Assembly: GCF_025751535.1 (NCBI RefSeq)
Contig: NZ_JAOWLC010000017.1
Location: forward strand, 1-49,526
DNA length: 49,526 nucleotides
Direction of reading: 5' to 3'
Source of the DNA: Lentibacter sp. XHP0401
GTDB lineage: Bacteria > Pseudomonadota > Alphaproteobacteria > Rhodobacterales > Rhodobacteraceae
This document shows, piece after piece, positions 1 through 49,455 of the stretch (position 1 is its first letter; the number at the start of each line of letters is the position of its first letter). Under the pieces are notes generated by a model. The model was given only the letters and a program-made list of their open reading frames with translations. It did not search any database and was not told where the DNA came from. A program made the position numbers and the translations under genes.

Positions 1-77
1 GACTAATGCGACGAAGGACGATCGCAGGATACGGCGCGGCCGGTGCCGGTGCAATTGCCTTGACGCTCTTCGTCGGT
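1..77. repeat. Terminal direct repeat (circular-contig overlap)
   Basis: Bases 1-77 are identical to bases 49450-49526. The repeat begins inside the end of the PCu(A)C gene and includes the start of the SCO gene, and both reading frames run through the join without interruption. This is what an assembler leaves when a circular molecule is written linearly; 77 is a common k-mer length. The true length would be 49,449 bp. A biological terminal repeat is much less likely. Confidence 0.95.
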
Positions 78-632: not shown

Positions 633-2002
633 GGCTCAGAACTTTTGCGGCAGGTGTCGCGCTTGCGGGGACCGTTTCGGGGGCGGCTATCGCCTTCCTC
701 GATGTTCTGTCGAAAGAACCCGTGCCGCCAGAACTTGCCCAGGCAGGTAGCTGGATGCCCCAGCGTCCTGAAGCTCCCCGGAGGCTGGACATTCCGTTGT
801 CGCTGCCAGCTACGGCGTGGGCGGAAGATACACCCCGCCTCGGCCCCTTGCCCCTGCTGCAGGTCGCTGTTGTTGACAGGCCGATGCAGGCGATCGAACC
901 GCCCCTGTTGACTTGGTCTCGCGACATCTCTTCTGGTGAAACGCTCGACTCCTTGCTTTCCGAAGCCGGTCTTGCGGGAGCCGACCGGGCGGAAGTCGCC
1001 CTTGCACTTGGCGCGGAATACGATCTGCGACGGTTGCGGCCGGGGAATTCGGTCACTGTTGTTTCGACTATGGATGGCAGCCCCCGCACCGTCTCGCTCG
1101 CCGTCGAGGACGGGGTGCGGATCGAGGTGCTTTTTGGCGAGCAGGTGTCCACGCAGGTCGTGGCGCCGGATCCGGAGATCGTAACCCTTGCTGGGGAGGC
1201 CGTGATCGACACCTCGATCTTCGCGGCACTCGACAATGCCGGCATCCCCGCCCGATTTGCCGTGGACCTTGCGCAAATGCTGGGTGGAACCGTGGATTTC
1301 CGCCGTGAGATGGCTGGAGGCGAGACACTAAGGCTTCTCTGGCGCGAGACGCGCGTCGGCGATGACAGGATCGGACAGCCGGACCTCGCCTTCGCCGCAC
1401 TGGAAATCGGCGATTCGCTTTACGAGATCGTTTGGCCGGACGACGGCAGCGGTCAGGCGACGATCTACGTCGATGGCGAGGCGCTTCGCGTCTTTGCACA
1501 GCCGGTCGAGGGCGCGCGCCTTAGCTCGGTGTTCGGGCGCCGCACACATCCGGTCTACGGAAACGTCCGGATGCACACCGGCGTCGATTTTGCCGCGGCA
1601 AGCGGGACGCCGGTACGGACGACGGCACCGGGCCGGGTTAGCTTCATCGGCTGGCGAGGCGGCTATGGACGCGTGGTCGAAATCTCTCACGGCTCCGAGA
1701 CCATGACGCGCTACGCGCATCTCAGCGCCGTGCCGGAGGGCCTAACACAGGGCCAACGCGTGGCGGCGGGAGATGTGATCGGCCGCGTTGGCGCAACCGG
1801 CACAGCGACAGGTCCCAACCTGCACTACGAAGTCCTCGTAGATGGGCGTCCGACTGACCCTCTCTCTGACGACCGGCTCGCAGAAGCCGCAGAGAAAGAG
1901 GTGGATGATACCGCCGCGCTGTTGCGTCTGACCGAGGCGCGCGCGCTTCTGACTGAAAACCTTGACAGCGAAATTGCCCAGACGACAACCGAAAGGCTCT
2001 GA
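629..2002 (+). CDS. M23-family murein endopeptidase
   Basis: A 457-residue exported zinc metallopeptidase, expected to cut peptide crosslinks in periplasmic peptidoglycan. The N-terminus has a signal or anchor segment (about 5-24). Residues 90-300 resemble the substrate-regulating N-terminal region of cell-division-type M23 enzymes. The C-terminal LytM domain (about 296-410) has all key residues: H316 and D320 in HTGVD, H364 in YAHLS and H399 in LHYEV, so it should be active. The ATG overlaps the upstream SCO stop (ATGA). A peptidoglycan hydrolase within a metal operon, beside two L,D-transpeptidase genes, suggests that wall remodelling is part of the response; that is inference. Confidence 0.9.
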   Translation: MRLRTFAAGVALAGTVSGAAIAFLDVLSKEPVPPELAQAGSWMPQRPEAPRRLDIPLSLPATAWAEDTPRLGPLPLLQVAVVDRPMQAIEPPLLTWSRDISSGETLDSLLSEAGLAGADRAEVALALGAEYDLRRLRPGNSVTVVSTMDGSPRTVSLAVEDGVRIEVLFGEQVSTQVVAPDPEIVTLAGEAVIDTSIFAALDNAGIPARFAVDLAQMLGGTVDFRREMAGGETLRLLWRETRVGDDRIGQPDLAFAALEIGDSLYEIVWPDDGSGQATIYVDGEALRVFAQPVEGARLSSVFGRRTHPVYGNVRMHTGVDFAAASGTPVRTTAPGRVSFIGWRGGYGRVVEISHGSETMTRYAHLSAVPEGLTQGQRVAAGDVIGRVGATGTATGPNLHYEVLVDGRPTDPLSDDRLAEAAEKEVDDTAALLRLTEARALLTENLDSEIAQTTTERL

Positions 2003-2005: not shown

Positions 2006-2461
2006 ATGAAACGCATGACCCAAGCTCTGACCATCGCGCTCGCCCTGTTCCCGGCGGCCCAGGCCCTCGCAGAGGCAACAGCGATAGACGTCCGCAAGAC
2101 CAACGGATGCGGCTGCTGCCTGTCCTGGATGAACCATCTCGAGGAAAACGGATTCGCGCCGACGGGCGAGAACATGTTTGGCGGGTCGCTGGTTCGTTTC
2201 AAGCTCGACAACGGCGTGCCGCAGCGCATGGTCTCCTGCCATACCGCGCTCATAGAGGGCTACGTGATTGAAGGCCATGTCCCGGCCGCTGATATCCGCC
2301 GCCTTCTTGAGGAACGCCCGGACGCTGTCGGCCTCGCCGTTCCGGGAATGCCCTATGGCTCGCCCGGCATGGGGCCGGAAGAAAACCGTGAAGCTTATGA
2401 TGTCTTCCTCATCCGCGAGAACGGGTCGACCGAAGTCTTTTCAAGCTACGCCGAAGGATAA
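2006..2461 (+). CDS. DUF411 periplasmic metal-binding protein
   Basis: A 151-residue secreted protein with a cleavable signal peptide (cut near ALA-EA, residues 20-24). The mature start carries CGCC (C35, C37, C38) and a later C78-H79 pair, the hallmark of DUF411, the family of the CopG protein found in copper and silver clusters. The fold is a thioredoxin-like copper-binding domain. It begins three bases after the M23 stop and belongs to the same operon as the SCO and PCu(A)C copper chaperones. It probably buffers or reduces periplasmic copper; the sequence does not reveal the exact reaction. Confidence 0.88.
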   Translation: MKRMTQALTIALALFPAAQALAEATAIDVRKTNGCGCCLSWMNHLEENGFAPTGENMFGGSLVRFKLDNGVPQRMVSCHTALIEGYVIEGHVPAADIRRLLEERPDAVGLAVPGMPYGSPGMGPEENREAYDVFLIRENGSTEVFSSYAEG

Positions 2462-2473: not shown

Positions 2474-3256
2474 ATGGAAAACCTGTCTCCGATAATGCTC
2501 GGCTTTCTCGGAAGCCTTGCCGCCGGATCGCTAACGGCAGTCGGAGCAATTCCCGTGCTGTTCGGGCGCATCCCGTCGCGGGCGACGCGCGATCTGTCGC
2601 TCGGCTTCGCTGCCGGCGTCATGCTCTCAGCCTCGTTCTTTTCTCTGATCATCCCGGCATTGGATGCGGCGGAGCCGATGTTCGAAAACGGCGCGATGCC
2701 TGCGGCCATCGTTTGCGTCTCCATCCTTTTGGGCATGGGGGCCGTTGCATTGATGAATGAAAGGCTGCCGCACGAGCATTTCAGAACGGGACGCGAAGGG
2801 CCCGAAGCGGCGTCCTTACGGCGGGTCTGGCTGTTCATCATCGCGATCACGATCCACAACTTCCCCGAAGGCCTCGCGGTCGGAGTTGGCTTCGGTTCCG
2901 GAGGTATGGAGGGCGGTCTGCCACTCGCTATCGGCATCGGGCTTCAGAATGCGCCTGAAGGGCTGGCCGTCGCGGTATCCCTGTTGGGCGAAGGATATCC
3001 GAAGCTGCGCGCATGGGGCATCGCCGCGCTAACGGGCATGGTCGAGCCGATTGGCGGTTTGCTCGGGGCGGGCATCATCACACTGTCGGAACCGCTGCTG
3101 CCATGGGGCTTGGCCTTTGCCGCAGGCGCCATGCTCTATGTCATCAGCCACGAAATCATCCCCGAAACCCATCGCAGCGGCCATCAGAACAAGGCAACGC
3201 TCGGCTTGGCCGTCGGGCTCGTTTTGATGCTTTTTCTCGATGTTTGGTTGGGGTGA
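2474..3256 (+). CDS. ZIP-family divalent metal transporter
   Basis: A 260-residue polytopic membrane protein with about eight hydrophobic segments. The two ZIP signatures are visible: HNFPEG (H128) in TM4 and QNAPEG (Q158, E162) in TM5, as in the GufA-like branch where the TM5 histidine is replaced. A short loop containing PHEHF (around residue 98) may bind metal. ZIP proteins normally move Zn2+ or other divalent ions into the cytoplasm, so its presence in an apparent resistance operon is unusual. It may restore zinc while a toxic ion is exported, or work in reverse. The ATG lies 12 bases after the DUF411 stop. Confidence 0.9.
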   Translation: MENLSPIMLGFLGSLAAGSLTAVGAIPVLFGRIPSRATRDLSLGFAAGVMLSASFFSLIIPALDAAEPMFENGAMPAAIVCVSILLGMGAVALMNERLPHEHFRTGREGPEAASLRRVWLFIIAITIHNFPEGLAVGVGFGSGGMEGGLPLAIGIGLQNAPEGLAVAVSLLGEGYPKLRAWGIAALTGMVEPIGGLLGAGIITLSEPLLPWGLAFAAGAMLYVISHEIIPETHRSGHQNKATLGLAVGLVLMLFLDVWLG

Positions 3257-3260: not shown

Positions 3261-3743
3261 ATGCCAGTGCATAAACTATCTCCGGTGATCGGTATTTTTG
3301 CGGCGCTTACCGCTTTCGTAATCGATCAGATCACAAAAGCCATTGTTGTGGCGAATGCGGCCTCCTTAAGCACTGGAATCGCCGTGTTTCCAGGTTTTAA
3401 CCTTGTCTTTTATCGCAATGATGGCGTCACTTTCGGACTACTTGGCGGCGCACCATGGTGGAGCCTCATAGCTCTCGCTCTTGCCATCTGCGGCTGGCTG
3501 GGGGTTATGCTGTTTCGCGCCGAAAATGCGGTTGAAACGCTCGCTTTCGGAGCGATCATCGGTGGAGCCTTGGGCAATGTTATTGACCGTGTGCGATATC
3601 GGGCTGTAACGGACTTCCTGGATTTCTACATCAACTCAACGCATTGGCCTGCCTTCAACATGGCCGATGTATTTGTCGTCAGTGGCGTGGGGCTCTTGCT
3701 GGCCGCACCCTGGATCAGTGCGCGGCGTCCGATCAAGTCGTGA
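3261..3743 (+). CDS. lspA: Lipoprotein signal peptidase II
   Basis: A 160-residue inner-membrane aspartic protease that removes the signal peptide of prolipoproteins after diacylglyceryl transfer. Four membrane segments are visible. The catalytic dyad is D109 (GNVIDR) and D126 (FNMADVF); FNLVFYRNDGVTFG and VTDFLDF are also conserved. An ATG at 3240 would add seven residues and overlap the ZIP gene; ATG 3261 lies four bases after the ZIP stop and gives the usual N-terminus. Plasmid copies of lspA are known in metal operons (for example the lspA-like half of PbrBC in Cupriavidus), so a metal-linked paralogue fits. The next gene, lnt, overlaps its stop. Confidence 0.94.
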   Translation: MPVHKLSPVIGIFAALTAFVIDQITKAIVVANAASLSTGIAVFPGFNLVFYRNDGVTFGLLGGAPWWSLIALALAICGWLGVMLFRAENAVETLAFGAIIGGALGNVIDRVRYRAVTDFLDFYINSTHWPAFNMADVFVVSGVGLLLAAPWISARRPIKS

Positions 3744-5317
3744 AGCCGGTAATTCTGAACTGCTTCGCTCTGCGCAAACCTCTGCTCTCGCGGATGACGC
3801 TTGGTTTCGCCGCCGGGGCGCTGACCGTCCTAACCTTCCCGCCTTTCTCGATTCTCCTGCTTGCTCCCGGTGCCTATTCTGCGTTGTTTGTCGGTCTTCG
3901 CGACCTCTCCTTCGGGCGTGCCTTTCTCGTCGGCTGGGCGTTTGGTCTCGGCCAGTTCGGTTTCGGGATTTCGTGGATCGCGGAAAGTTTCTACGTCGAG
4001 GCCGAGCGTTTCGGGGCGCTGGCGATCCCGGCCGTCGCGGGATTGTCCGCAGGTCTTGCGATTTTCCCGGCCATTGCCGCCGTGCTCTTCGTCGAAATCG
4101 CGCGGCGCAGAGCCATGGGCAGTCTCCTGGCCTGCCTCCTGTTCGCGACCTCCTGGACCGTGGCCGAGTGGTTGCGCGGTCACGTTCTGACAGGTTTTCC
4201 GTGGAACCTCGCCGGCTACGCTCTTGTTGATTACGCCGCCCTTCGCCAGCACGCCGCCTGGGTGGGAAGTTATGGGCTAAGCTTTCTCACCGTGTTCGTA
4301 GCGGCACTCCCCGGCGCGGCTCTCATGGCGGTCAGGCGACAACGATTGATCATCTCGCTCATGCCGCTGGCCGGCATCGTGACGATGTGGGCCATCGGCA
4401 CGCTTCGCCTCCAGTCGGATGCACCACAGCCACCGGATGTCGACCTGCGCATCGTTCAGGGCAACGTACCCCAAGCGGAGAAATGGGCGCCCGAGAACCG
4501 CGAGGCGACCTTCGCGCGCTATATCGAGCTTTCAACCCAGCCCGGCGATTTCGACGTTCTTCTCTGGCCGGAAACCGCCTTTCCCGGTTTCCTCGATGAG
4601 GATGCCCAGGCGCGATCCCGTATCGCGGCTGCGCTTCCGGACGGCAGCGTGCTGCTCACCGGAGTGCCAGACCGTGTACCGAGTGAGGATGGCACCCGAT
4701 ATTTCAACACCGTCCAGGCTTTTGACGATAACAGTGAGATCCTGACCGGATACGCGAAACACCATCTCGTGCCCTTTGGCGAATACGTGCCATTCCGCGG
4801 CTGGTTGCCGATCGAGCGGCTGACGGCGGGGCTGGGCGATTTTACGCCCGGACCGGGTCCGCGCACCCTTGCGCTTCCGGGTATGCCGCTGGTCGCCGTG
4901 GCGATCTGCTATGAGATCATTTTCCCGGGCCATGTGGTCGACGACATGTTCCGACCCGACTGGATTTTTAACGCGACGAACGATTCCTGGTTTGGAACCA
5001 GCATCGGACCCGAGCAGCATCTGGCTTCCGCACGTATGCGCGCCGTAGAGGAAGGCCTTCCTGTCATCCGAGCCGCGAATACGGGCATCTCTGCGGTCAT
5101 CGACGCGAACGGAGAGATCATTGCGCGGCTCGATACAGGGGAAAGGGGCATCATCGACGCTGATCTTCCCTCAGCGCAGCCGCCTACGCCATATGCGCTT
5201 TTCGGGGACGGGATGTTGCTGGCGCTCATCTTGGCTTCGTGGAGCTGGGCTCTGGCGGCCAATGCGACGGCTAACTACCGCCGCATGAGAAAGACCGTCA
5301 TGCAAAGATGTGGATAG
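3740..5317 (+). CDS. lnt: Apolipoprotein N-acyltransferase
   Basis: A predicted 525-residue inner-membrane enzyme that adds the third acyl chain to apolipoproteins. The hydrophobic N-terminal half carries several membrane segments and the C-terminal half is a nitrilase-type domain with the complete triad E278 (WPETAF), K340 (YAKHHLVPFGEYVP) and C390 (AICYEIIFP), close to E. coli Lnt spacing. The start is taken as the GTG at 3740, which overlaps the lspA stop (GTGA); an earlier in-frame ATG at 3644 would extend deep into lspA. In E. coli this gene was first named cutE for copper sensitivity. Its last 20 bases overlap the convergent L,D-transpeptidase gene. Confidence 0.94.
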   Translation: MKPVILNCFALRKPLLSRMTLGFAAGALTVLTFPPFSILLLAPGAYSALFVGLRDLSFGRAFLVGWAFGLGQFGFGISWIAESFYVEAERFGALAIPAVAGLSAGLAIFPAIAAVLFVEIARRRAMGSLLACLLFATSWTVAEWLRGHVLTGFPWNLAGYALVDYAALRQHAAWVGSYGLSFLTVFVAALPGAALMAVRRQRLIISLMPLAGIVTMWAIGTLRLQSDAPQPPDVDLRIVQGNVPQAEKWAPENREATFARYIELSTQPGDFDVLLWPETAFPGFLDEDAQARSRIAAALPDGSVLLTGVPDRVPSEDGTRYFNTVQAFDDNSEILTGYAKHHLVPFGEYVPFRGWLPIERLTAGLGDFTPGPGPRTLALPGMPLVAVAICYEIIFPGHVVDDMFRPDWIFNATNDSWFGTSIGPEQHLASARMRAVEEGLPVIRAANTGISAVIDANGEIIARLDTGERGIIDADLPSAQPPTPYALFGDGMLLALILASWSWALAANATANYRRMRKTVMQRCG

Positions 5318-5810
5318 GCGTTCCGTCCTTCACCATTGCATAGATGTCCTCGATCTGCCGATCTGTGACTGCGATGCAGCCAGCTGTCCAGTCGCGGATG
5401 TCCGTCGGGTCGATGCCGGGGCGTGGACCACCATGGATGAAGATGTCGCCGCCGGGGGAAAGGCCCTGCGCTGCGGCAAAGGCGATGTCGGCCTCATTTG
5501 GATAAGAGATGCCAACTGAAAGATGATACGTACTTTCAGGGTTGCGCTTATCGACTATGTAGGTGCCCTCCGGGGTCCGACCGTCTCCCTCGAATTGCTT
5601 GTGACCCTGAGGAGCGAAGCCCAGCCCGATCGGATAGGTTTGCAGCACGCGATCGGATCCGTCGAGAACAAGCAAACGCTGTCCCTTGTAGAGCCGAAGT
5701 CGCGTCACTTCGGGTCCGTCATAGCTGCGGAACTTGCCGGCACAGCCCGACAAAAAGGCCGCTAAGCCACCCAACAGGACGGCGCGGCGGGGAAATCGGA
5801 TGGTTTTCAC
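5298..5810 (-). CDS. L,D-transpeptidase (YkuD) lipoprotein
   Basis: A 170-residue YkuD-domain enzyme expected to form 3-3 peptidoglycan crosslinks or attach proteins to murein. The N-terminus (RRAVLLGGLAAFLSGC) has a lipobox, so C23 should be lipidated by the LspA and Lnt encoded just upstream on the other strand. The catalytic region is intact: H126 in FIHGG and C145 in WTAGCIAV. It lies 63 bases downstream of the P-type ATPase gene in the same direction and could be read from that gene's MerR-type promoter. Its 3' end overlaps lnt tail to tail by 20 bp. Confidence 0.9.
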   Translation of the reverse strand: MKTIRFPRRAVLLGGLAAFLSGCAGKFRSYDGPEVTRLRLYKGQRLLVLDGSDRVLQTYPIGLGFAPQGHKQFEGDGRTPEGTYIVDKRNPESTYHLSVGISYPNEADIAFAAAQGLSPGGDIFIHGGPRPGIDPTDIRDWTAGCIAVTDRQIEDIYAMVKDGTPIHIFA

Positions 5811-5873: not shown

Positions 5874-8228
5874 TCAATGTCCGTGGGCAAGCGCGGCCTT
5901 TGCCATCTGTGACCCAACCTGCTCGCCACCGGACGGCGGTGCCTTGGCCTCTTGGCTGTTGAGCAGGCGCAGGGCGTTCGCCACCACCAGCAATGACACA
6001 CCCACGTCGGCTGCAATAGCGCCCCACATCGATGCCATTCCGAACGCGGTAGCGACAACGAAAACTCCCTTGGTCGCCAAGGAAATACCGATGTTCTGAT
6101 GGATAATCGACATTGTCCGGCGCGAATGACCGATCAGCCAAGGCACCTTGCCGAGGTCGTCGGTCATGAGGGCAATGTCCGCCGTCTCGATTGCCGCGTC
6201 AGAACCAACCGCACCCATCGCGATGGCATAATGCGCGCGCGCCATTGCGGGAGCATCGTTCACCCCGTCGCCGATCATGGCAACCATGTCATGAGTTTTG
6301 ACCAGTTCTTCGATGGCTGTCACCTTGTCTTCGGGCAGAAGCTCAGCGCGCACCTCGTCGATACCGACCTCGGCGGCAACGGCGCGCGCTGTTCGCTCGT
6401 TGTCACCGGTCAGCATGACGATGGTCTTCACGCCCTGCGCGTGAAGTTGCGCCACGATGCCCTTGGCATCAGGGCGGATGCGATCGCGCAGTTCAAGAAT
6501 GCCCGTCACACCGGATTCATCGCCGACAGCGACAAGGGTGCTGCCGGCGCCTTCGATCCGCTCCCGCAGATCCTTCGGAATGGCGTCGCCGAAACCCTTC
6601 TCCTCGGCAAACCGGTCCGACCCCAGCCAGATCGACCGTCCGTCAGTGCGTCCTTCAAGTCCCCTGCCGGGAATGGTGCGGGTATCCTCTGCGGCGGACA
6701 CCTTGACGCCGTCGGCCTCCGCCCGCGCGAGAATGGCACGCGCCAAAGGGTGCGACGAACGTGCCTCCAGTCCTGCGGCGAGGGTCATCAGATCTTGCGC
6801 TGAAGCCCCGCCCAGCGGGTGCACCGCCGCCACTTCCGGCTGGCCCATGGTGATTGTGCCGGTCTTGTCCATGGCCAGCGCCGTCGTCCTGCCCGGCGCC
6901 TCTACATAGGCACCGCCCTTGATGAGGACGCCCGCCCGCGCCGAAGCGGTGAGCGCTGCGACGATGGAGACAGGGGTCGAGATGACCAGAGCACATGGGC
7001 AAGCGATCACCAGCAGCACGAGGGCATTGTAGAACCAGTAATCCCAGGCTCCGCCGAAGATAAGCGGCGGCAGTAGCGCAATTGCGACGGCGAGAGCCAT
7101 GACGATAGGCGTGTAGATGCGGGCGAACTTTGCCACCCACTGTTCCACGGGCGCGCGGCGGGCATGAGCGTCGCCGACCATGCGGATGATCTTGGCCAAG
7201 ACGGTATCCGAGGCGGCCTTCGTGGCGCGCACCGTTAGTGTACCTTCGCCGTTGATCGTGCCCGCATAGACCTCGTCTCCGGCCTCTTTGGGTATCAAAG
7301 CACTTTCGCCGGTGATCGGCGCCTGGTCGACCGCGCCCGCGCCACCCGTCACCAGGCCGTCGAGCGGGATACGGTCGCCACCGCGTACAATAAAGCTTGA
7401 GCCTACGGCGACTTGCGCCGCCGGCATGTCGGTCTCGCTTCCGTCATCGCGGATCACGCGCGCGGTGGGTGGCGCAAGATCCAGGAGCGCCGACACCGCG
7501 TTCCGCGCGCGCCCAACGCTCCAGCTTTCGAGAAAGAGGGACAGCGAAAAGAAAAAAGCCACTGTCGCTGCCTCGAAGAATTCACCGAGCCCGATGGCTC
7601 CGGCGACTGCGACAACCATCAGCAGGTTCATGTCGGGCGACAGCCGACGTGCGGACGACCATGCCTTCGGTGCCACAAGCCAAACGCCGAATAGGATAGC
7701 AACTGCAAAAAGCCCTGCCTCGGCCAGCGGCATCGGCGCTTCGCCGTGCCCCGCGAAGAGGCCGAGCGCCCCGCCCATACCTGTCTCGACGATGTGCCAG
7801 AGAAAACCCGCCGCCCAGAAGCCGCCGCTGAGAGCTGTAAACAGCCGCTGTCGTGCAAGATGGGCCGCTTGGTCGACCGACGCGTTCTCGGCATTCCACG
7901 GCTTCGCGGTCATGCCGGTGCTCGCGACAAGTTCCGCAACTTCGTCGTCCGATACACTCTTTGCGCTGTCGAGAATGGTCATCCTCCCGTTGATCACATC
8001 GAACGCGAGATGCTCGGCCCCGCCGATCTGTGGGCCGATTACCTTATTCAAGATCGCGACCTCCTCGGCGCAATCGAGGCCGGACACCTGAAAACTGCGC
8101 CCGCCGGTTGGGGCGGGCGTCGTCGGTGCGATGTCGCCGCACGTTCCGGCGCTACCACAGCAACTGCCGCCGCTTGCCTGGGCATCTTCGGCGTGATCGT
8201 GATCGTGGCGGTGGGTGTCGGACGGCAT
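5874..8228 (-). CDS. Zn/Cd/Pb-translocating P1B-type ATPase
   Basis: A 784-residue heavy-metal exporter of the ZntA/CadA group. The cytoplasmic N-terminus is His/Cys-rich (THRHDHDH, then GGSCCGSAGTCG), followed by a ferredoxin-like domain with GLDCAEE, where the usual second cysteine of the CxxC is missing. Later landmarks are CPC (C410, C412) in ACPCALVIST, the phosphorylation site D454 in DKTGTI, and [11 protein letters not shown] near the C-terminus. CPC followed by LVISTP favours Zn2+/Cd2+/Pb2+ over Cu+. Expression is predicted from the MerR-type promoter 33 bp upstream of the ATG. Ion preference is inferred from motifs and from the cysteine pattern of the plasmid MerR protein. Confidence 0.93.
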   Translation of the reverse strand: MPSDTHRHDHDHAEDAQASGGSCCGSAGTCGDIAPTTPAPTGGRSFQVSGLDCAEEVAILNKVIGPQIGGAEHLAFDVINGRMTILDSAKSVSDDEVAELVASTGMTAKPWNAENASVDQAAHLARQRLFTALSGGFWAAGFLWHIVETGMGGALGLFAGHGEAPMPLAEAGLFAVAILFGVWLVAPKAWSSARRLSPDMNLLMVVAVAGAIGLGEFFEAATVAFFFSLSLFLESWSVGRARNAVSALLDLAPPTARVIRDDGSETDMPAAQVAVGSSFIVRGGDRIPLDGLVTGGAGAVDQAPITGESALIPKEAGDEVYAGTINGEGTLTVRATKAASDTVLAKIIRMVGDAHARRAPVEQWVAKFARIYTPIVMALAVAIALLPPLIFGGAWDYWFYNALVLLVIACPCALVISTPVSIVAALTASARAGVLIKGGAYVEAPGRTTALAMDKTGTITMGQPEVAAVHPLGGASAQDLMTLAAGLEARSSHPLARAILARAEADGVKVSAAEDTRTIPGRGLEGRTDGRSIWLGSDRFAEEKGFGDAIPKDLRERIEGAGSTLVAVGDESGVTGILELRDRIRPDAKGIVAQLHAQGVKTIVMLTGDNERTARAVAAEVGIDEVRAELLPEDKVTAIEELVKTHDMVAMIGDGVNDAPAMARAHYAIAMGAVGSDAAIETADIALMTDDLGKVPWLIGHSRRTMSIIHQNIGISLATKGVFVVATAFGMASMWGAIAADVGVSLLVVANALRLLNSQEAKAPPSGGEQVGSQMAKAALAHGH

Positions 8229-8260: not shown

Positions 8261-8291
8261 GACATAGCCCCTACAGTAGCTAGAGCTTCAA
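8261..8291 (-). promoter_or_regulatory. MerR-type promoter/operator of the P-type ATPase
   Basis: On the minus strand: -35 TTGAAG (8286-8291), exactly 19 bp, -10 TATGTC (8261-8266). The spacer CTCTAGCTACTGTAGGGGC holds an imperfect dyad CxCTA-N7-TAGxG. Overlong 19-bp spacers with a dyad are the signature of MerR-family activation. Three further sites with the same TTGAA[C/G]-CT start occur on the plasmid. Confidence 0.85.
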
Positions 8292-8743: not shown

Positions 8744-9406
8744 TCAACTTCGCGCGGTGACACTGTCCTCCGCTGAGTACAAATGTGCCGTCGATTCGAT
8801 CTCAACGTTGGGATAAAGTTCGTTAATGTGAGCCATGACCATCCGCACGCAACCCGAACTGGCTCGACCGCCGATACTTCGCGGATAGGGCGTGCCGTGT
8901 ATTCGAAGATAAGTGTCGCGGTCTCCGACGTACAGATAGATGGCTCGTGATCCCAAAGCGTTTTCGGGGCCGGGTTCCATCCCGTCGGCCCATCGTGCGT
9001 TTTCCGGATCCCGCTCGATCATCTTCTGGGTCGGCGTCCAATGCGGCCACCTCACCTTGCGTTTGATCGTGTAGACCCCCGGCTCATATAGGTTGCCCCG
9101 GGCAATGGCCACACCGTAGCGCATTGCGGTCCCGCTCTCCTCGATATGATAGAGATACCGCGCGACTGCATCGACATGGATGTCTCCTGGCACGAGTCCG
9201 GGTTTCGCGACCACGCGCTGGGGCAAAAAGCGCGGGTGTAGGCCCCAAGGGTTTGACGTGGCCGGATCGAATCCGGGCGGCGTGACTTGCGCGTCCCATT
9301 CAGCTTTCTGTGCCTCGGCGGGCCAGGTATCGGCCAACAGGGGGCTGGAAACAGACGCGGAGAATAGCGCCGTTGTTGTTTGAATGAAGTGTCGTCTTGT
9401 CAGCAT
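8744..9406 (-). CDS. Exported L,D-transpeptidase (YkuD), second copy
   Basis: A 220-residue YkuD-domain protein with an N-terminal export signal (TRRHFIQTTTALF, possibly a Tat signal) ending near LLA-DT. The catalytic motif is intact: H170 (LRIHGT) and C186 (RASSGCVRM). Unlike the copy at 5298 it has no lipobox, so it should be soluble in the periplasm. It is preceded by a MerR-type promoter identical in architecture to that of the ATPase gene, so wall crosslinking would be induced with metal efflux. Family and catalysis are well supported; the regulatory link is inferred. Confidence 0.9.
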   Translation of the reverse strand: MLTRRHFIQTTTALFSASVSSPLLADTWPAEAQKAEWDAQVTPPGFDPATSNPWGLHPRFLPQRVVAKPGLVPGDIHVDAVARYLYHIEESGTAMRYGVAIARGNLYEPGVYTIKRKVRWPHWTPTQKMIERDPENARWADGMEPGPENALGSRAIYLYVGDRDTYLRIHGTPYPRSIGGRASSGCVRMVMAHINELYPNVEIESTAHLYSAEDSVTARS

Positions 9407-9467: not shown

Positions 9468-9498
9468 TAGATAAGACTTCTAGTGGCTAGAGGTTCAA
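9468..9498 (-). promoter_or_regulatory. MerR-type promoter/operator of the L,D-transpeptidase
   Basis: Minus strand: -35 TTGAAC (9493-9498), 19-bp spacer CTCTAGCCACTAGAAGTCT, -10 TATCTA (9468-9473). The dyad CTCTAG/CTAGAA closely matches the perfect one at 47216-47232. A merR remnant begins 12 bp beyond it on the other strand, the usual divergent arrangement. Confidence 0.83.
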
Positions 9499-32801: not shown

Positions 32802-35135
<2,334 letters not shown>

Positions 35136-43667: not shown

Positions 43668-43796
43668 CTACGCGACATATCTGTTTGGAGGCCAGATGCG
43701 CTTGGACGGGCGGGCGATCGACCAAAAGAGCGCACCAATCAAAACCAGACCGGACAGCAGGCCTGCGACCACTAGTATGCCTTGGGCAATCGTCAT
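43668..43796 (-). pseudogene. Truncated membrane methyltransferase-like gene
   Basis: The ATG at 43796 overlaps the CDF stop (ATGA) and gives 42 residues: MTIAQGILVVAGLLSGLVLI, then FWSIARPSKRIWPP, like the N-terminus of isoprenylcysteine-methyltransferase-type membrane proteins. It then ends at the boundary of the ISL3 remnant, so the rest of the gene has probably been lost by that insertion. Confidence 0.6.
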
Positions 43797-44710
43797 GAGC
43801 GGTGTCCGAACACCTGCGCCTCCTGATGCGCATTGTCGGTCGCTTCGAATTCAAGCGTGGAATGCTCGATTGAGAAACGTTCATGCAGCACCGATTTGAC
43901 GTTTTCTTTAATTTTGTCGGCCTCACCCATCCGGTCGCGTTCGACAACAATATGGCAGTCCAATGCCGCAGTGCTCTCCTGCATTTGCCACAGGTGGACA
44001 TGATGCACGTTCACAACGCCATCGACACTCTGGATCGCTCTGACCACGTCATTTCCATCAATATCTGGTGGGCTCCCAAGCATCAGGGTTCGAATTGGGC
44101 CCCCTATTTCGGTGAAGGACAGATACAGGATGTAGAGCGCGATGCCGATGGTGATGGCCGGATCCACCCAACGCATATCATAAAGTATAATGAGCGTCCC
44201 GCCGACTATGACGGCCACTGAAGCCAACGCGTCCGAAAGGTTGTGGAGAAACAGCGCGCGGATGTTCACGCTCCCCTTCTGCATCGAATAGGTCAGCATT
44301 GCGGTCAGCGTGTCGACCACAAGCGCAATTCCACCGAGAATGACGACGGTCCACCCCATGACTTCGGGTGGATCAATCATGCGCATGCTACCTTCGTAGA
44401 TCAGGTAGAAGCCGATCACGATCAGGGTGGTGTAGTTGATCAGGGCAGCGACGATTTCGACCCGGCCATAGCCGAAAGTCATGCGCTCATCGGCCGGGCG
44501 GCGCGCGATCTTGCGCGCGGCGAAGGCAATGACAAGCGAGGCCATATCGGAAAAGTTGTGCAGCGCATCGGCGATAAGTGCTAGACTGCCCGACAATATG
44601 CCCCCGACGATTTGCGCAACAGTAAGTAGCCCATTCGCCCAGATCGCGATCGCAACCCGTCGATCCCCAGAATTCGGATCGATATTCGCGTGCCCGTGAT
44701 CATGCGGCAT
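43793..44710 (-). CDS. CDF-family cation efflux protein (CzcD-like)
   Basis: A 305-residue membrane exporter, likely H+-coupled Zn2+/Cd2+ efflux. The start MPHDHGHANID (44710) carries a His-rich N-terminus. TM2 holds ADALHNFSD and TM5 LHNLSDALAS, the two HxxxD zinc-site motifs; the C-terminal domain (about 205-300) includes VHHVHLWQM, another metal-binding element. It overlaps the transglutaminase gene by 11 bp and is read from the MerR-type promoter upstream of that gene. Confidence 0.93.
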   Translation of the reverse strand: MPHDHGHANIDPNSGDRRVAIAIWANGLLTVAQIVGGILSGSLALIADALHNFSDMASLVIAFAARKIARRPADERMTFGYGRVEIVAALINYTTLIVIGFYLIYEGSMRMIDPPEVMGWTVVILGGIALVVDTLTAMLTYSMQKGSVNIRALFLHNLSDALASVAVIVGGTLIILYDMRWVDPAITIGIALYILYLSFTEIGGPIRTLMLGSPPDIDGNDVVRAIQSVDGVVNVHHVHLWQMQESTAALDCHIVVERDRMGEADKIKENVKSVLHERFSIEHSTLEFEATDNAHQEAQVFGHRS

Positions 44711-45461
44711 TGGCAGGCTCCTCATGCGCGTGTGTCGCGCGTCGGTCAGTCTTCAGGCGGCCGCTGCGGAAACCACGTACGCGCGCATTCATCCAGTGGC
44801 GTATTATATGACGGTAAAGGGCACCACGCAGCCTTCCAAAGGATTGCTCATGGGACAAATAGAAGGCGTCGGGCGTATCGTACACGCCGAAATCTTGCAC
44901 GATGCCGGTTTTCTGAATGTAGGTATCTTCTCCGTTCCAGGCGACGGGAGGCGCGCCAAGGCAATCCGTGCCCGCGCCATAACCGCAGAGACTGTCCGTG
45001 TCCGAGAACGATCTTTGCAGGACTTCGAAGAAAGCGTCATCCAGGATGAAGCCTTCAAGGTTGATCCAGGCCCCTTGAAATTCGATCTCTACCCACGAAT
45101 GGAGAATTTCCTCTGGAGCAAGCGGATACACCAACTCTGGGACAACACCGCGCTGCAAGCCTTTGTGGATCGTAAACCCATGCAACCGGCAACGAACGCC
45201 AACACCACGCAGCAGCGCCATTAAGAGCGTGCCTTTCGTATTGCACTGCCCGTAGCCGTCGGAAAGTACCTCGGATGCGGGGATGTCGTCAGCTCGATTG
45301 TATCCGAACGAGATTTCATTTCGAACGAAATCATAGGCAGCTCCGATCCGATCGTATTCGGATAAGTCGCGCCAGCTGCGGCTCTCTATTAGATGCGCAA
45401 GAGGCGCGGCATCAAAATCCAGTAGTTTTGTGGGTGCAAGTAGGGGGTTGGTTATCTGCAA
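44700..45461 (-). CDS. Transglutaminase-like cysteine protein
   Basis: A 253-residue protein with a transglutaminase-like core: SDGYGQCNTKGTLLMALLRGVGV (nucleophilic Cys), ILHSWVEI (His) and a following INLEGFILDD segment that supplies the acidic residue. No signal peptide is evident, so it may be cytoplasmic. It leads a two-gene operon with the CDF exporter under a MerR-type promoter, which suggests metal-induced protein processing. The substrate is unknown. Confidence 0.82.
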   Translation of the reverse strand: MQITNPLLAPTKLLDFDAAPLAHLIESRSWRDLSEYDRIGAAYDFVRNEISFGYNRADDIPASEVLSDGYGQCNTKGTLLMALLRGVGVRCRLHGFTIHKGLQRGVVPELVYPLAPEEILHSWVEIEFQGAWINLEGFILDDAFFEVLQRSFSDTDSLCGYGAGTDCLGAPPVAWNGEDTYIQKTGIVQDFGVYDTPDAFYLSHEQSFGRLRGALYRHIIRHWMNARVRGFRSGRLKTDRRATHAHEEPANAA

Positions 45462-45521: not shown

Positions 45522-45550
45522 CCCCTTCTTTTAGAAACGATCTCTCGCAA

Positions 45551-46159
45551 CTACTTGTCCGTGTGAACTGCTTTGTGGTGTTCACCGTGTGCGTCGCGTA
45601 GGATATTGACGCCGTCCCAGGCCGCGATCCCGGCGATAATCACACCGACGACTAGGTCGGGCCAGTTCGTTCCCAGCCAGGCAACGAGGCCACCTGCGAC
45701 CACGATTCCGAGGTTTGCCGCAAAGTCGTTCCAGCTGAAAGTATTGGCCGCGCGGATGTTGACGTCCGGATCTTTGAGCCGAGCGAGCAACCAGACACAA
45801 ACTGAGTTGATGGCCGCCGCGCTCAGCGCCATGACGATCATAACGGTGCCAAGGGGATCCGACCCACCGACATAGCGGCGCCAAGCATCATAAAGGATCC
45901 CGATGGCGAACACGATCAGCAAGCAGCCCGAGACATTCGCCGCACCACGTTTCCATTTCGCAGACCGCGACAATGCAAACAGACTGATTGCGTAGACCAA
46001 GCTGTCTGAAAGGTTGTCGAGCCCGTTTGCGATCAGGGCACTGGAATCCCCGAAGGCCCCGATCGCAAAAAAGGCCATGGCAAGACCCACGTTTAGACCG
46101 AGAACAATCCAAAGGGTGCGTCTTTCGCTTGCTCCTTTTCCTGCAGTCATACTTCCCAT
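45551..46159 (-). CDS. CDF-like membrane protein with altered metal sites
   Basis: A roughly 202-residue protein (start MGSMTAGKG; 46150 is also possible) with six membrane segments like the CDF transporter core, ending soon after TM6 with HGEHHKAVH and no C-terminal domain. The TM2 site reads ANGLDNLSD instead of ADALHNLSD (His to Asp) and TM5 FSWNDFAANLG instead of HxxxD. It belongs to a small cation-transporter subfamily common near metal genes. Substrate may differ from Zn2+/Cd2+. Confidence 0.82.
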   Translation of the reverse strand: MGSMTAGKGASERRTLWIVLGLNVGLAMAFFAIGAFGDSSALIANGLDNLSDSLVYAISLFALSRSAKWKRGAANVSGCLLIVFAIGILYDAWRRYVGGSDPLGTVMIVMALSAAAINSVCVWLLARLKDPDVNIRAANTFSWNDFAANLGIVVAGGLVAWLGTNWPDLVVGVIIAGIAAWDGVNILRDAHGEHHKAVHTDK

Positions 46160-46348
46160 TCCGCTTGGTCGACTATAATCCTTCAACCTCTCGGGCAGAT
46201 CAGAGTTCCGGATTGATTAATAATGGTCAGTTCCATTTACGACCGCCGGGAGCTGTCAGTCAGGCGTCTCAACCAAAGTAGAGCATAGCCCTTTTTATGG
46301 GGCGATGAGATCGCGATTTGAGACGGTTTCAAGTTCAAACCATAAAGT

Positions 46349-46684
46349 TCAATTGGTTCGTGGCGCGGCCAGTATTATAGCTGCGCCGAGCAAGCAAACG
46401 GCTGTGCCAAGCGCATCCCACCTGTCCGGTCTGTGACCCTCTGCAAGCCACATCCACAGTACAGAAGCCGCAATGTAAACTCCGCCGTAGGCGGCAAAGG
46501 CGCGGCCCGCAGCAACCGTTTCGACTTGCGCCAGAAGCCACCCGAATACCACCAAGGCTACAATACCGGGTACGAGCCAGGCCGCGGATGCGCCGAGGCG
46601 CCACCAACTCCAGATCGCGAAACACCCGGCGATCTCGGCCAAGGCCGCAAGCGGATAGGCAAGCGCGGCAGGCATCTCAGGCAC
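46349..46684 (-). CDS. YnfA-family small membrane protein
   Basis: A 111-residue protein with four membrane segments, matching the YnfA/UPF0060 family ([56 protein letters not shown]), which is related to SMR exporters. It overlaps the MerR gene by eight bases, so the two are co-transcribed. A role in metal or drug export is possible but untested. Confidence 0.9.
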
Positions 46685-47105
46685 CGATCTCGTCGTGTTC
46701 GGTCAAACATTCGGAATGATCCCGCAACACCTCAAGCACCTTGCAATCGGCGGTACGTCCACCGCTGCATTCGTGAACCATGCGTTTCAGTTCGGTGCGC
46801 AGCGCCTTCAGACGGGCCATGCGCTGCTCCACCTGCTTAAGCTGGCGACGCGCAATCGCGTCGGCTTCTTCGCAGGGCCGATTGGGCTGGTCGCTGAGGT
46901 CGAGCAGCTCGCGGATCGCATCAAGTGAGAAGCCGAGTTGTCGCGAATGGCGGATAAAGGACAGTCGGTCGAGCTGTGCATTGTCATAGCGCCTCTGTCC
47001 GCCTTCAGTCCGGCCAGGTTCGGGCATGAGCCCGATCTGCTCGTAGTACCGAATGGTCTGCACCTTTGTGCCCGTCTTCTTTGACAGAGTGCCGATCGTG
47101 AGCAT
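46677..47105 (-). CDS. MerR-family Cd/Pb/Zn-type metal sensor
   Basis: A 142-residue regulator. The start at 47105 ([20 protein letters not shown]) follows GGAGG; the longer reading frame adds 23 atypical residues. The winged helix is complete and the dimer helix carries C78. The metal loop C113-SGGRTAD-C121 and C133 follow. C78/C113/C121 matches the three-cysteine pattern of CadR and PbrR proteins rather than the two-cysteine loop of CueR. It diverges from the ten-gene operon and is the only intact MerR gene here, so it probably serves all four matching promoters. Confidence 0.92.
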
Positions 47106-47210
47106 CTTCGCCTCCATGAAAAAGTTACAGTCTTTGTAGGTTTTGCCGCCCCAATAGACAAGTGCCGGATTCACAGACGCGTGAGTTTAAGCCACAACGT
47201 GATTTCGCGC

Positions 47211-47241
47211 TTGAACCTCTAGTAGCTAGAGGATGTAAACG
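47211..47241 (+). promoter_or_regulatory. MerR-type promoter/operator of the ten-gene operon
   Basis: -35 TTGAAC (47211-47216), 19-bp spacer, -10 TAAACG (47236-47241). The spacer contains CCTCTAG-TAG-CTAGAGG (47216-47232), a perfect 7-3-7 palindrome and the best of the four operators. It lies between the divergent merR gene and the SCO gene, 37 bp before the first start codon. Confidence 0.88.
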
Positions 47242-47277
47242 CGACAATAATCAAGAATCAAAATCAGGCGCGCAGGT

Positions 47278-47880
47278 TTGTCCCTTACATCGGCACAGAA
47301 GTTTCTTTGGGTTTTAGCAGGCGCCGCGGCGCTTGCCTTCGTATGGCTTTTGCTCTGGTCGGACTATCGCGCTGACCGCGCCCGAACCGACACCGATCCG
47401 GCGTTTCTCGCCGCATTCGAATTGACGGACCACCAAGGTATGGTCCGCACAGAAGAAGACTTTTCGGGGCGTTGGATGTTGGTATTTTTCGGCTTCAGCA
47501 ACTGCCCCGATGTCTGCCCGACGACACTGTCTGAGGTCGCGGCGGTGATGGACGGTCTGGGCGACAATGCCGCGAGGGTCCAGCCGATTTTCATAACCAT
47601 CGACCCCGAACGGGACACGCCCATGGCACTCGCCGAATTCGTTCCGCAGTTCGATGCGAACATCATCGGGCTGACAGGTACGCCCGAACAGATCGCCGCT
47701 ACATCCGAAACGTTTCCGATCTTCTTTGAACGCATCGAAGAGGCCACAGCGCCGGATGGCTACACAATGGGCCACACGTCACATCTGTTTCTATTCGACC
47801 CCGAGGCAGGCTTTGCAGACTCATGGCCCTATGGCACGTCCGCTGAAGAGATTCTCGCCGATATGGAAGAGAGGATCTGA
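47278..47880 (+). CDS. SCO1/SenC-family protein (first copy)
   Basis: A 200-residue membrane-anchored periplasmic copper/thiol protein; the TTG at 47278 is the best start (no ATG is available before the anchor at residues 8-27). CPDVC supplies C76 and C80, H166 (MGHTSHL) completes the site and ITIDPERDT is conserved. First gene of the operon behind the MerR operator; a second SCO follows four genes later. Their sequences differ clearly, so this is an old duplication or separate recruitment. Confidence 0.92.
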   Translation: MSLTSAQKFLWVLAGAAALAFVWLLLWSDYRADRARTDTDPAFLAAFELTDHQGMVRTEEDFSGRWMLVFFGFSNCPDVCPTTLSEVAAVMDGLGDNAARVQPIFITIDPERDTPMALAEFVPQFDANIIGLTGTPEQIAATSETFPIFFERIEEATAPDGYTMGHTSHLFLFDPEAGFADSWPYGTSAEEILADMEERI

Positions 47881-47885
47881 CCGAC

Positions 47886-48308
47886 ATGAACCGCATACCC
47901 GCAGAAACCGCCCTCGGGCTGGCATGGATCGTTGCCCTCGTCGCCTCGCTTGCTGTACTTTTCATCGGCGAAGTGATGGGGCAGACACCCTGCGTGCTGT
48001 GCTGGTTCCAGCGCGCCTTCATGTTCCCGCTCGCGATCATTCTCGGCCTCGGCCTTTGGTGGCGAGACGGCAGCGTCGGGCGCTATGGCATCGCTCTGGC
48101 GCTTGGTGGTGGCGTGGTCGCCCTGTGGCACATGGGCCTCTACGCGGGCCTGATCCCCGAACGCATCCAGCCCTGCACGGCCACCGGCCCCTCTTGCACC
48201 GATGATAACCAATTGGCCTTCGGCATTCCGATCCCGCTGATGGCGCTGGCCGCCTTCGCGCTGATCGGGTTCCTGTCGGCACTTTCATTGAAGGAAACAC
48301 AAACATGA
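47886..48308 (+). CDS. dsbB: DsbB-family disulphide oxidoreductase
   Basis: A 140-residue inner-membrane protein with four segments. The first periplasmic loop has CVLC (C36, C39) and the second CTATGPSC (C97, C104), the two redox pairs of DsbB. It should reoxidise the DsbA-like protein of the next gene using quinone. The downstream gene starts in its stop (ATGA), so the pair is made together. Placed between SCO and PCu(A)C, it links disulphide formation with periplasmic copper handling. Confidence 0.93.
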   Translation: MNRIPAETALGLAWIVALVASLAVLFIGEVMGQTPCVLCWFQRAFMFPLAIILGLGLWWRDGSVGRYGIALALGGGVVALWHMGLYAGLIPERIQPCTATGPSCTDDNQLAFGIPIPLMALAAFALIGFLSALSLKETQT

Positions 48309-48964
48309 ATCGACGCGGCTTAATCCTGTCCGTTCTCGCCCTCGGCGTTGCCGGTTTCAGCGGAGCCACCTGGTATGCATCCCGCTCCGGCCCGATGGCC
48401 GAAGCAGATCCCGTTGCGCCGGAACTCGCGGACGCAATGATCCGCTCTTACTCGCCCATCCTCGGACCTGCCGACGCGCCCGTCACGATTGTCGAATTCT
48501 TTGACCCGGCCTGCGAGGCTTGCCGCGCCTTCCATCCGATCGTGAAGGACATCATGGCACAGCATGGAGATGCCGTCCGCGTCGTTATCCGCTACACCGC
48601 GTTTCATGGCGAGGCATCCGAGGAAGCAATCCGCGTGCTCGAGGCAGCACGCATGCAAGGCGTTTACGAGCCGGTGCTCGAAGCCGTTCTGCGGGATCAG
48701 CCGAGATGGGCGTCGCACGGCGCGCCTGAGCCCGGTCTGATCCTCCAGATCGCCGCCACTGCCGGACTCGATGCAGAGGCCGCGCGCACGCAAATGCTGG
48801 CACCGGATGTCGTTGCGATCCTGAATCAGGATCGTGCGGACGTCGAAACCGTGGGAGTTCGCCAGACTCCTACTTTCTTTGTAAACGGCAAGTCGCTCGA
48901 TCTGTTCGGGGAGGCAGAACTGCGGCGATTAGTGGCCGCGGAAGTTGCCGCCGTGCAAAGCTGA
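48305..48964 (+). CDS. DsbA-like thiol oxidoreductase
   Basis: A 219-residue exported thioredoxin-fold protein with an N-terminal signal/anchor (about 6-22), active site CEAC (C70, C73) in EFFDPACEACRAF and cis-proline P189 in RQTPTFFVNG. The fold and CxxC position fit DsbA/DsbG-type enzymes. With DsbB it forms an apparently complete oxidative system; metal stress that damages thiols is a plausible reason. Whether it oxidises or isomerises cannot be told. Confidence 0.92.
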   Translation: MNRRGLILSVLALGVAGFSGATWYASRSGPMAEADPVAPELADAMIRSYSPILGPADAPVTIVEFFDPACEACRAFHPIVKDIMAQHGDAVRVVIRYTAFHGEASEEAIRVLEAARMQGVYEPVLEAVLRDQPRWASHGAPEPGLILQIAATAGLDAEAARTQMLAPDVVAILNQDRADVETVGVRQTPTFFVNGKSLDLFGEAELRRLVAAEVAAVQS

Positions 48965-48987
48965 ATGGAAAAGGCAGGACCAAAACG

Positions 48988-49455
48988 ATGAAAAAGATTA
49001 TTATGACGGGCACACTGGCCGCGCTCTTGACCTTTGGAGGGCTCTCAGTGCCCGCACTGGCCGGACCCGTGGATGTCGTCGTCGAAAGCGCGTGGTCCCG
49101 CGCCTCCATAGGGATGAACCGCCCCGGGGCCGCCTACATGACGATCCGCAACACTGGCGACGAGCCGGTGACGCTGATTGGTCTTTCAACACCCCTCGCG
49201 ATGATGCCCGAGATCCACGAGACGAAGACCAATGCCGAAGGTGTGAGTTCCATGAGCCCGGCAGGTGAGATCGCGATCGCCCCGGGCGAGAGCGTCGCGC
49301 TTGAGCCGGGCGGCCTCCACGCGATGTTGATGCGGCTACAACAACCCATGACGGAAGGTGAAACCTTTCCGCTGACCCTACTTTTTGTCGACGGGGGCGA
49401 GGTGACGGTCGAGGTGCCGATCCTTGGCATCGGCGCACGCGGACCGGAAGACTAA
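48988..49455 (+). CDS. PCu(A)C periplasmic copper chaperone
   Basis: A 155-residue exported protein (signal peptide to about ALAG, residue 26) with the PCu(A)C copper site: H77, M89, H111 and M113 in the H-x11-M-x21-HxM arrangement (EIHETK, SSM, GGLHAML). It delivers Cu(I) to cytochrome oxidase or to SCO, and a SCO gene follows immediately, its ATG overlapping this stop across the circular junction. Function by family is firm. Confidence 0.94.
   Translation: MKKIIMTGTLAALLTFGGLSVPALAGPVDVVVESAWSRASIGMNRPGAAYMTIRNTGDEPVTLIGLSTPLAMMPEIHETKTNAEGVSSMSPAGEIAIAPGESVALEPGGLHAMLMRLQQPMTEGETFPLTLLFVDGGEVTVEVPILGIGARGPED

Follow-up and report, generated by a model that had tools for sequence, protein, structure and literature searches.

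In the pbr operon of Cupriavidus metallidurans (PbrR, PbrT, PbrA, PbrB, PbrC, PbrD), a predicted signal peptidase, a P-type ATPase and an uptake protein are placed under one regulator, as outlined in the relevant passage of PMC1526738. Here we describe a larger gene set found on a contig of Lentibacter sp. XHP0401 (NZ_JAOWLC010000017.1, positions 1 to 49,526; this whole 49,526-nucleotide stretch is called the window below). Its core is a ten-gene operon behind a MerR-type promoter, to which we refer, together with the neighbouring genes behind similar promoters, as the module. Like pbr in the same passage, the module has a MerR-family regulator of the CadR/PbrR kind and a palindrome within a long promoter spacer. 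Unlike pbr, it contains a ten-gene periplasmic block with SCO, PCu(A)C, DsbA/B, M23, DUF411 and Lnt proteins, and its regulon takes in two proteins of the L,D-transpeptidase fold. The operon encodes the signal peptidase LspA, and the P-type ATPase gene cadA has a promoter of matching type; one regulator may serve both. No PbrB (undecaprenyl pyrophosphate phosphatase; UppP) or PbrD family was found among the matches of the scanned window genes, the profiles searched including none for PbrD.

The Gram-positive copper resistance mobile element, which carries lit2 and a second lgt, resembles the module in combining mobile metal resistance with extra lipoprotein-maturation enzymes, but these are Lit and Lgt instead of LspA and Lnt, the cell plan is different, and the passage of the review concerned mentions neither Dsb proteins nor an L,D-transpeptidase (PMC8689077). 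In the pco/sil copper-silver island of enterobacteria, M23 and DUF411 genes stand beside copper/silver genes, as in the module, whereas SCO, PCu(A)C, Dsb, LspA and Lnt are absent from the genes listed for its 10.6 kb, in a table that declares itself incomplete. A different Klebsiella plasmid has a CadR-ATPase-lspA unit adjoining pco. SCO/PCu(A)C clusters and Scs disulphide systems share copper chaperones and thioredoxin-fold oxidoreductases with the module, which mixes these with lipoprotein maturation and MerR-type promoters. On plasmid p2 of Shinella zoogloeoides, CopC/CopD lie upstream of a row formed by DsbA, a peptidyl-prolyl isomerase, two L,D-transpeptidases and LspA. Genes for DsbB-DsbA, SCO, PCu(A)C, a multicopper oxidase and ZIP are found nearby, and the order differs from that of the module; the promoter signature described below was not found in the 14.8-kb p2 stretch searched.

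Each half of the module has a precedent: the signal peptidase in pbr, lipoprotein enzymes in the copper element and M23 with DUF411 by pco/sil. The ten-gene combination had been put forward from the DNA letters alone (the sequence-only reading) as an unfamiliar one. Its union of Lnt and Dsb proteins with L,D-transpeptidases under MerR-type promoters was not found described among the literature matches listed, which were open-licence papers. In public records the module genes are annotated singly, gene by gene. On balance we favour, by a modest degree, the view that the module is a mobile MerR-controlled resistance regulon directed against thiol-seeking metals (Cu/Ag and/or Zn/Cd/Pb), which joins metal handling to envelope upkeep.

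The first and last 77 bases of the contig are identical (a terminal repeat), so the contig is circular, with a circle of 49,449 bp. It is one of 28 contigs (C8) in a 3.71-Mb genome, and RepA/B/C-type genes at 12320-15854 identify it as a RepABC plasmid. The operon runs on the plus strand across the circular join from 47278 to 5317 and includes ten genes in 7,489 bp, in the order SCO-DsbB-DsbA-PCu(A)C-SCO-M23-DUF411-ZIP-LspA-Lnt. The first four (SCO, DsbB, DsbA, PCu(A)C) occupy 47278-49455 and the other six (SCO, M23, DUF411, ZIP, LspA, Lnt) 6-5317. In the list below, rows are those of the protein alignments.

47278..47880, plus strand: SCO1/SenC protein 1 (PF02630; CxxxC and His166 in 59/59 rows)
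47886..48308, plus strand: DsbB (PF02600; Cys39, 97 and 104 in 56/56 rows, Cys36 in 55/56)
48305..48964, plus strand: DsbA-like thioredoxin-fold protein (PF13462/PF01323; both Cys of CEAC in 58/58 rows)
48988..49455, plus strand: PCu(A)C copper chaperone (PF04314; His77, Met89, His111 and Met113 in 59/59 rows)
6..632, plus strand: SCO1/SenC protein 2 (PF02630; CxxxC and His166 in 59/59 rows)
629..2002, plus strand: M23-family protein (PF01551; Asn397 in place of the first HxH histidine)
2006..2461, plus strand: DUF411 protein (PF04214; Cys35, 37, 38 and 78, His79 and 91, Met115 and 122 in 52/52 rows)
2474..3256, plus strand: ZIP metal transporter (PF02535; top NCBIfam match ZupT, below its cut-off)
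3261..3743, plus strand: LspA, lipoprotein signal peptidase, second copy (TIGR00077, 108.7 bits, cut-off 73.95)
3740..5317, plus strand: Lnt, apolipoprotein N-acyltransferase, second copy (TIGR00546, 316.8 bits, cut-off 132.9; GTGA overlap with lspA)

The sequence-only reading had proposed this operon over the join, largely with overlapping stop and start codons or gaps of 24 bp or less. The end repeat, the Pfam matches of all ten products and their common strand bear it out, and the junctions, in operon order, measure 5, -4, 23, -1, -4, 3, 12, 4 and -4 bp. The ten genes are predicted to be co-transcribed. The starts of Lnt (GTG at 3740) and LspA (ATG at 3261) were picked by eye; the start codon of SCO protein 1 is TTG, and its true start may be later. 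The 1-bp overlap falls between PCu(A)C and SCO protein 2, across the join. A consensus sigma-70 scan gave one match in each of two stretches, not above shuffles, and terminator-like sites, which were not used, numbered 10 in 43600-49526 (expectation 4.9) and 9 in 1-9500 (expectation 8.3).

The closest solved structure is Blr1131 for SCO protein 2 and 3gyk for the module DsbA, which Scs-type structures match weakly. Asp109 and Asp136 of LspA, which we take to be the catalytic aspartate pair, are present in 49/49 rows. In Lnt, the residues of the presumed catalytic triad are kept as well: Glu278 in 37/37 rows, Lys340 and Cys390 each in 36 rows, plus one gap.

The M23 protein was used to find relatives of the module. 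At E 1e-60 or better, it is matched in 55 of 292 Rhodobacterales genomes, belonging to 38 of 112 genera, and in 6/385 genomes of a class-wide sample, the window's own included. From 59 M23 places, 55 neighbourhoods (L037-L091) were taken, leaving out the window's own and three contig-end pieces. The exact ten-gene order is found in 26 of the 55. SCO1, DsbA, SCO2 and M23 occur together in 49, LspA in 42, Lnt in 33, both LspA and Lnt in 32, MerR in 46 and CadA in 39. Four loci (L080, L081, L083, L084) have M23 alone and represent paralogues outside the module. The exact order is retained down to about 55% M23 identity (L076-L078). A second collection, the best 80 of 349 relatives from named genomes, contains the exact order in 64; the other 16 include six stretches shorter than 12 kb and eight loci (L225-L232) with LspA and without ZIP and Lnt. 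The two counts are not independent, because the collections overlap (some contigs are of equal length, for example 41,971 and 129,161 bases) and the 80 are the nearest relatives. Thalassospira profundimaris, which lies outside Rhodobacterales, is among the 64. The gene order named by the sequence-only reading is thus a recurrent one.

The module is common on plasmids. With the first 2.2 kb of the operon, 244 plasmid records of PLSDB match, 112 of them covering at least 80% of the query, and the commonest genera are Pseudosulfitobacter, Phaeobacter and Sulfitobacter; the opening 8 kb of the window match 1,374 records, 83 of which cover at least 80%. A plasmid of R. litoralis also has the module, and pDSHI01 of Dinoroseobacter shibae DFL 12 carries all ten genes. 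It is not confined to plasmids, since 7/55 loci lie on contigs longer than 1 Mb. At roughly 45-60% identity the order changes: in L085-L088 it is LspA DsbB DsbA ... Lnt SCO PCuAC SCO M23 DUF411, and L090 (in the same identity range), L150 and L151 have parts of the module in still other orders. The same parts have been regrouped repeatedly in different orders, which speaks for a functional tie between them.

Besides the operon, the predicted regulon includes the following features.

46677..47108, minus strand: MerR-family metal regulator (Pfam MerR), divergent from the operon
47211..47237, plus strand: MerR-type promoter with palindrome CCTCTAGTAGCTAGAGG and a 19-bp spacer, before the ten-gene operon
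8265..8291, minus strand: MerR-type promoter before cadA and probably the YafK-like gene too
9472..9498, minus strand: MerR-type promoter with one mismatch, before ldt2
5874..8228, minus strand: CadA/ZntA-type P-type ATPase (TIGR01525 and TIGR01512 above cut-off)
5298..5810, minus strand: YafK/DpaA-like protein of the L,D-transpeptidase fold (YkuD domain; lipobox Cys23), downstream of CadA
8744..9406, minus strand: L,D-transpeptidase Ldt2 (YkuD domain; Cys186 in 37/37 rows)

The palindrome CCTCTAGTNNCTAGAGG occurs at 47216-47232 without mismatches and at 9477-9493 with one; the chance expectation of the palindrome with at most two mismatches is 0.02 for the whole window. Promoters of MerR-family metal regulons hold a palindrome in a spacer of 19 or 20 bp, and all three sites are of this kind, with 19 bp. 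The full promoter signature (TTG, a 19-bp spacer holding the palindrome, and TA, with one mismatch allowed) has three matches in the window and none in 100 shuffles, but its pattern was defined after sites in relatives had been seen, so the weight rests on the comparison across relatives.

For this comparison, 56 loci (60 minus the four M23-only ones) were surveyed against Markov-resampled controls. Palindromes with up to two mismatches number 77, against 0.2 in controls, and 70 of them lie 20-200 bp upstream of ten named genes, in regions that make up 7.2% of the sequence. With up to three mismatches there are 120, against 7.2 in controls, and 105 occupy such positions. Distinct sites (up to three mismatches, within 320 bp) were then scored for TTG plus TA at 19 bp: the signature is kept at 33/33 sites before SCO1, 19/20 before CadA and 12/16 before Ldt2 (three have TTG on the other strand). 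It is also present before CDF-type genes (3/3) and M23 (1/1) and, in rearranged loci, before Lnt (4/4) and LspA (1/1). Five sites before DsbA have TTG in all five and TA in none. Among exact signatures in named loci, the first gene within 250 bp is SCO1, CadA or Ldt2 in 97 of 98 cases. The operator type thus travels with lnt and ldt in rearranged loci.

The operon had been described as standing behind one MerR operator. The operator is there (47216-47232, 0 mismatches), only not as the sole one: judging by the three promoters on the plasmid, the regulon is wider than the operon and also takes in CadA, the YafK-like protein and the L,D-transpeptidase. A short frame at 9511-9705 (plus strand), divergent from ldt2 and beside its promoter, starts like a MerR N-terminus (TIRYYEKIG) and is likely a remnant of a second merR.

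The regulator itself scores below all NCBIfam equivalog cut-offs: 119.4 bits for CueR (cut-off 147.4), 117.7 for ZntR (143) and 113.2 for CadR-PbrR (151.45). The top score would suggest a CueR label, but solved-structure matches favour a CadR type; the closest are the MerR-family protein 5gpe and CadR. Cys79, 114, 122 and 134 are present in 54/54 rows, and Cys79 aligns with a cysteine of CadR.

E. coli and many other Gram-negatives cannot live without Lnt, and the hosts of the module keep another copy of it. All 26 genomes chosen for having Lnt in the module contain exactly two lnt above cut-off and at least two lspA, which shows that another lnt and lspA remain in these hosts. Of 149 Rhodobacterales genomes, 21 have an M23 match (the window's own included), and 12 of these contain a second lnt (E 1e-50), against none of the 128 without the match (Fisher p 1.9e-12, uncorrected for relatedness); a second lspA is found in 15/21 and 6/128, respectively. 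lspA also occurs in other metal operons, of the types CadR-CadA-lspA and CadR-CDF-lspA, on enterobacterial and Acinetobacter plasmids. In the Lnt tree, a 100/100 branch separates 34 distinct module Lnt from 26 others. The LspA tree is split 46 versus 26 at 100/99, with a long-branch warning, and its module side includes five metal-associated LspA from outside the module. With these splits, module Lnt and LspA are separate lineages and not fresh copies of host genes. The Glu-Lys-Cys triad is kept in both Lnt groups. We infer that the module DsbA/DsbB is likewise additional to a host pair.

The M23 protein deserves separate consideration, as the sequence-only reading had ascribed wall hydrolysis to the operon. 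Membership of the M23 family stands (PF01551), while hydrolysis is doubtful. The first His of the HxH motif, which in work on LytM is reported to take part in catalysis, is replaced by Asn397 in 59/59 module rows (57 loci), although His316, Asp320, His364 and His399, presumably zinc ligands and motif residues, are kept in all 59. A MepM/ShyA-type endopeptidase would have the zinc ligands and both motif histidines, and the module protein has only one of the latter. The three of the four M23-only paralogues that cover this column have His there, and the PcoG-like protein of the pco/sil island keeps an HLH motif with His at the position of Asn397. The closest solved relatives are 6muk and 3slu. 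The ordinary wall hydrolase was rejected as a safe statement owing to Asn397: hydrolysis should not be assumed, as the motif histidine is lost, and the module M23, by its residues, may not be an ordinary hydrolase.

Of the two L,D-transpeptidase-fold proteins, the YafK-like one scores 38.6 bits against LdtF_DpaA_YafK, far below the cut-off of 365, and membership of that family is not claimed for it. As it has the YkuD domain and Cys145 (30/30 rows), it may possibly work like DpaA/YafK. Its lipobox Cys23 is found in 28/30 rows. cadA and the YafK-like gene follow each other on the same strand with 63 bp between. When the window was scanned for lipoboxes with a simple pattern, three candidates came up; on visual inspection the YafK-like protein alone is credible.

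Published effects of copper on the envelope touch several of the functions encoded here. The passages available describe impaired lipoprotein acylation in E. coli under copper, with intermediates like those of Lgt depletion, and a cutE locus that harbours lnt (PMC6538781). Periplasmic copper is said in a commentary to perturb disulphides and L,D-transpeptidases (PMC6593411). DpaA/YafK is inhibited by copper with an IC50 (half-inhibitory concentration) near 0.1 mM (PMC8263019), and an L,D-transpeptidase of V. cholerae is inhibited by copper alone of the metal salts tested (PMC11390936).

Within the resistance regulon that we favour, binding of metal to the MerR sensor would switch on the three promoters with 19-bp spacers (operon, cadA-yafK and ldt2). 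CadA and the CDF exporters would clear the cytoplasm of metal, SCO, PCu(A)C and DUF411 would bind or hand on periplasmic copper, and ZIP may restore zinc. Sensing of metal would also lead to synthesis of the L,D-transpeptidase, the YafK-like protein in lipidated form and additional copies of DsbA/DsbB, LspA and Lnt. These extra enzymes may raise the capacity of metal-poisoned disulphide formation, lipoprotein maturation and L,D-cross-linking, or replace them. More specifically, though here we are tentative and would rather expect some part of it to fail, the plasmid regulon would supply under toxic metal a dedicated LspA-Lnt, DsbA-DsbB and Ldt/YafK-like set while the housekeeping enzymes are poisoned and outer-membrane assembly continues, with M23 as a zinc-binding or activator protein rather than a cutter. 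The earlier suggestion of an envelope-repair programme triggered by toxic metal can be retained in part: a metal-triggered envelope programme is consistent with a conserved row behind a MerR-type metal promoter, but replacement or bypass of metal-poisoned enzymes fits better than repair.

Several observations weigh against this interpretation. The published envelope effects, as far as the cited passages go, concern copper, while the sensor looks CadR/PbrR-like and keeps a CadR-aligned Cys, which argues for divalent metals as the trigger; a broader thiophilic-metal trigger would reconcile the two. The step blocked by copper in E. coli is that of Lgt in the passages cited (PMC6538781, PMC6593411), and lgt is absent from the ten genes. 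LspA and Lnt vary more between loci than the six genes at the start of the operon, as the 42 and 33 of 55 loci and the eight of the best 80 without ZIP and Lnt indicate. No operator with up to three mismatches was found before SCO1 in L059, L063, L067, L076-L079 and L147. Module Lnt has on average 2.8 cysteines, against 2.2 in other copies, and since it is not cysteine-depleted, a simple model of metal-proof enzymes fails. Cysteine depletion as a mark of such enzymes is unsupported for Lnt and weak for LspA (1.36 against 2.0, with five of the 53 module-side rows coming from outside the module). Physiological reports are weak and mixed in the parts concerned. R. litoralis tolerates more zinc and less copper than R. 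denitrificans, in an uncontrolled comparison of two species; its plasmid pRLO149_83 has ZIP and a Zn ATPase listed as resistance genes, the operon itself being undescribed in that passage (PMC3141670). A 102-kb metal plasmid of D. shibae gave no advantage with Cu, Co or Zn and only slight silver resistance (PMC9426580); this plasmid may or may not carry the module, which in the same species is found on pDSHI01.

An alternative would be an enlarged pbr-like Zn/Cd/Pb system. Here a CadR/PbrR-type regulator would govern a P-type ATPase, ZIP in the place of PbrT and LspA as PbrC, with LspA acting in the precipitation or turnover of metal, as has been proposed for pbr; the copper and Dsb genes would be passengers or second-line parts. 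The structural neighbours of the regulator (CadR and a MerR-family protein), the promoters of one type before the genes for CadA and LspA and the CadR-CadA-lspA and CadR-CDF-lspA units of enterobacterial and Acinetobacter plasmids all fit this, as do the zinc induction of a PbrC-like lspA reported for Mesorhizobium (PMC3668242) and the higher zinc tolerance of R. litoralis (PMC3141670), both within the passages cited. However, the most constant part of the module is SCO-DsbB-DsbA-PCuAC-SCO-M23 (49/55 loci with SCO1, DsbA, SCO2 and M23, against 42 with LspA) and not any pbr-like part, the PbrB/UppP family is absent from the matches of the scanned genes, and Lnt and the L,D-transpeptidase are left without a place, so we regard such a system as unlikely.

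SCO and PCu(A)C are cofactors of oxidase assembly, and the operon could be a dedicated assembly line in which SCO, PCu(A)C and DsbA/B load copper and disulphides into a cuproenzyme (a terminal or multicopper oxidase), while LspA/Lnt process particular lipoproteins that the regulon encodes, for example the YafK-like one with its conserved lipobox Cys (28/30 rows). A multicopper oxidase is indeed encoded on the plasmid and near 12 of the 55 loci, and a CtaG-like gene near 10. Neither of these is a constant client, though, nor is YafK (32/55); one credible lipobox among three candidates in the window makes few clients for two enzymes, and the hosts keep another LspA and Lnt anyway. This we consider quite unlikely. 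Selfish gathering, in which unrelated useful metal genes are held together on a plasmid by horizontal transfer and form no single programme, would account for the frequent plasmid location, the near identity of DNA between genera (95-99% in 12 of 244 plasmid records) and the variable tail of the operon, but hardly for an order and overlaps conserved over deep divergence, for one operator type before the operon, cadA, ldt2 and, in rearranged loci, lnt, or for the 7/55 loci on contigs longer than 1 Mb; it seems improbable.

To the left of merR, further genes of the metal region are found, with varying presence among the 55 loci.

46349..46684, minus strand: YnfA-family protein (NF002586 above cut-off), overlapping the end of merR; 15/55 loci
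45551..46186, minus strand: short CDF-like transporter of 211 residues (TIGR01297, 75.9 bits, under the 82.35 cut-off); 24/55 loci
44700..45461, minus strand: transglutaminase-like protein (PF01841); 35/55 loci
43793..44725, minus strand: CDF cation exporter (TIGR01297 above cut-off); 39/55 loci

An Acinetobacter plasmid (L157) also has the pair of transglutaminase-like protein and CDF exporter, next to a CadR-type regulator. In three relatives, an isoprenylcysteine carboxylmethyltransferase-family gene adjoins the CDF gene (L005 5083-5640, L006 6904-7461, L158 1-75). An ISL3-type transposase piece (42893-43588, plus strand) lies near the left end of the metal region. In L004 (14506-17441) the operon is longer, and lnt is followed by genes for a penicillin acylase-family protein and a CtaG-like protein of cytochrome oxidase assembly; across the 55 loci, penicillin acylase is found in 7 and CtaG in 10. 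The plasmid also carries a second copper block with a multicopper oxidase, a P-type ATPase with YHS and heavy-metal-binding domains, a DUF305 protein and a response regulator with histidine kinase, spanning 29938-31470 (plus), 32802-35135 (minus), 37636-38121 (minus) and 38919-41209 (plus). A Fic-domain protein gene (27780-28843, minus strand) preceded by that of a small HTH (helix-turn-helix) protein perhaps forms a toxin-antitoxin pair.

Pumps, oxidases and chaperones are the usual explanation of metal resistance. The module suggests that marine bacteria share a gene set with which they survive metals partly by replacing poisoned envelope machinery. If this is true, a regulon with inducible copies of the very functions that copper impairs would provide a natural experiment on which of the envelope targets are important, and the second Lnt would offer a genetic handle on Lnt function.

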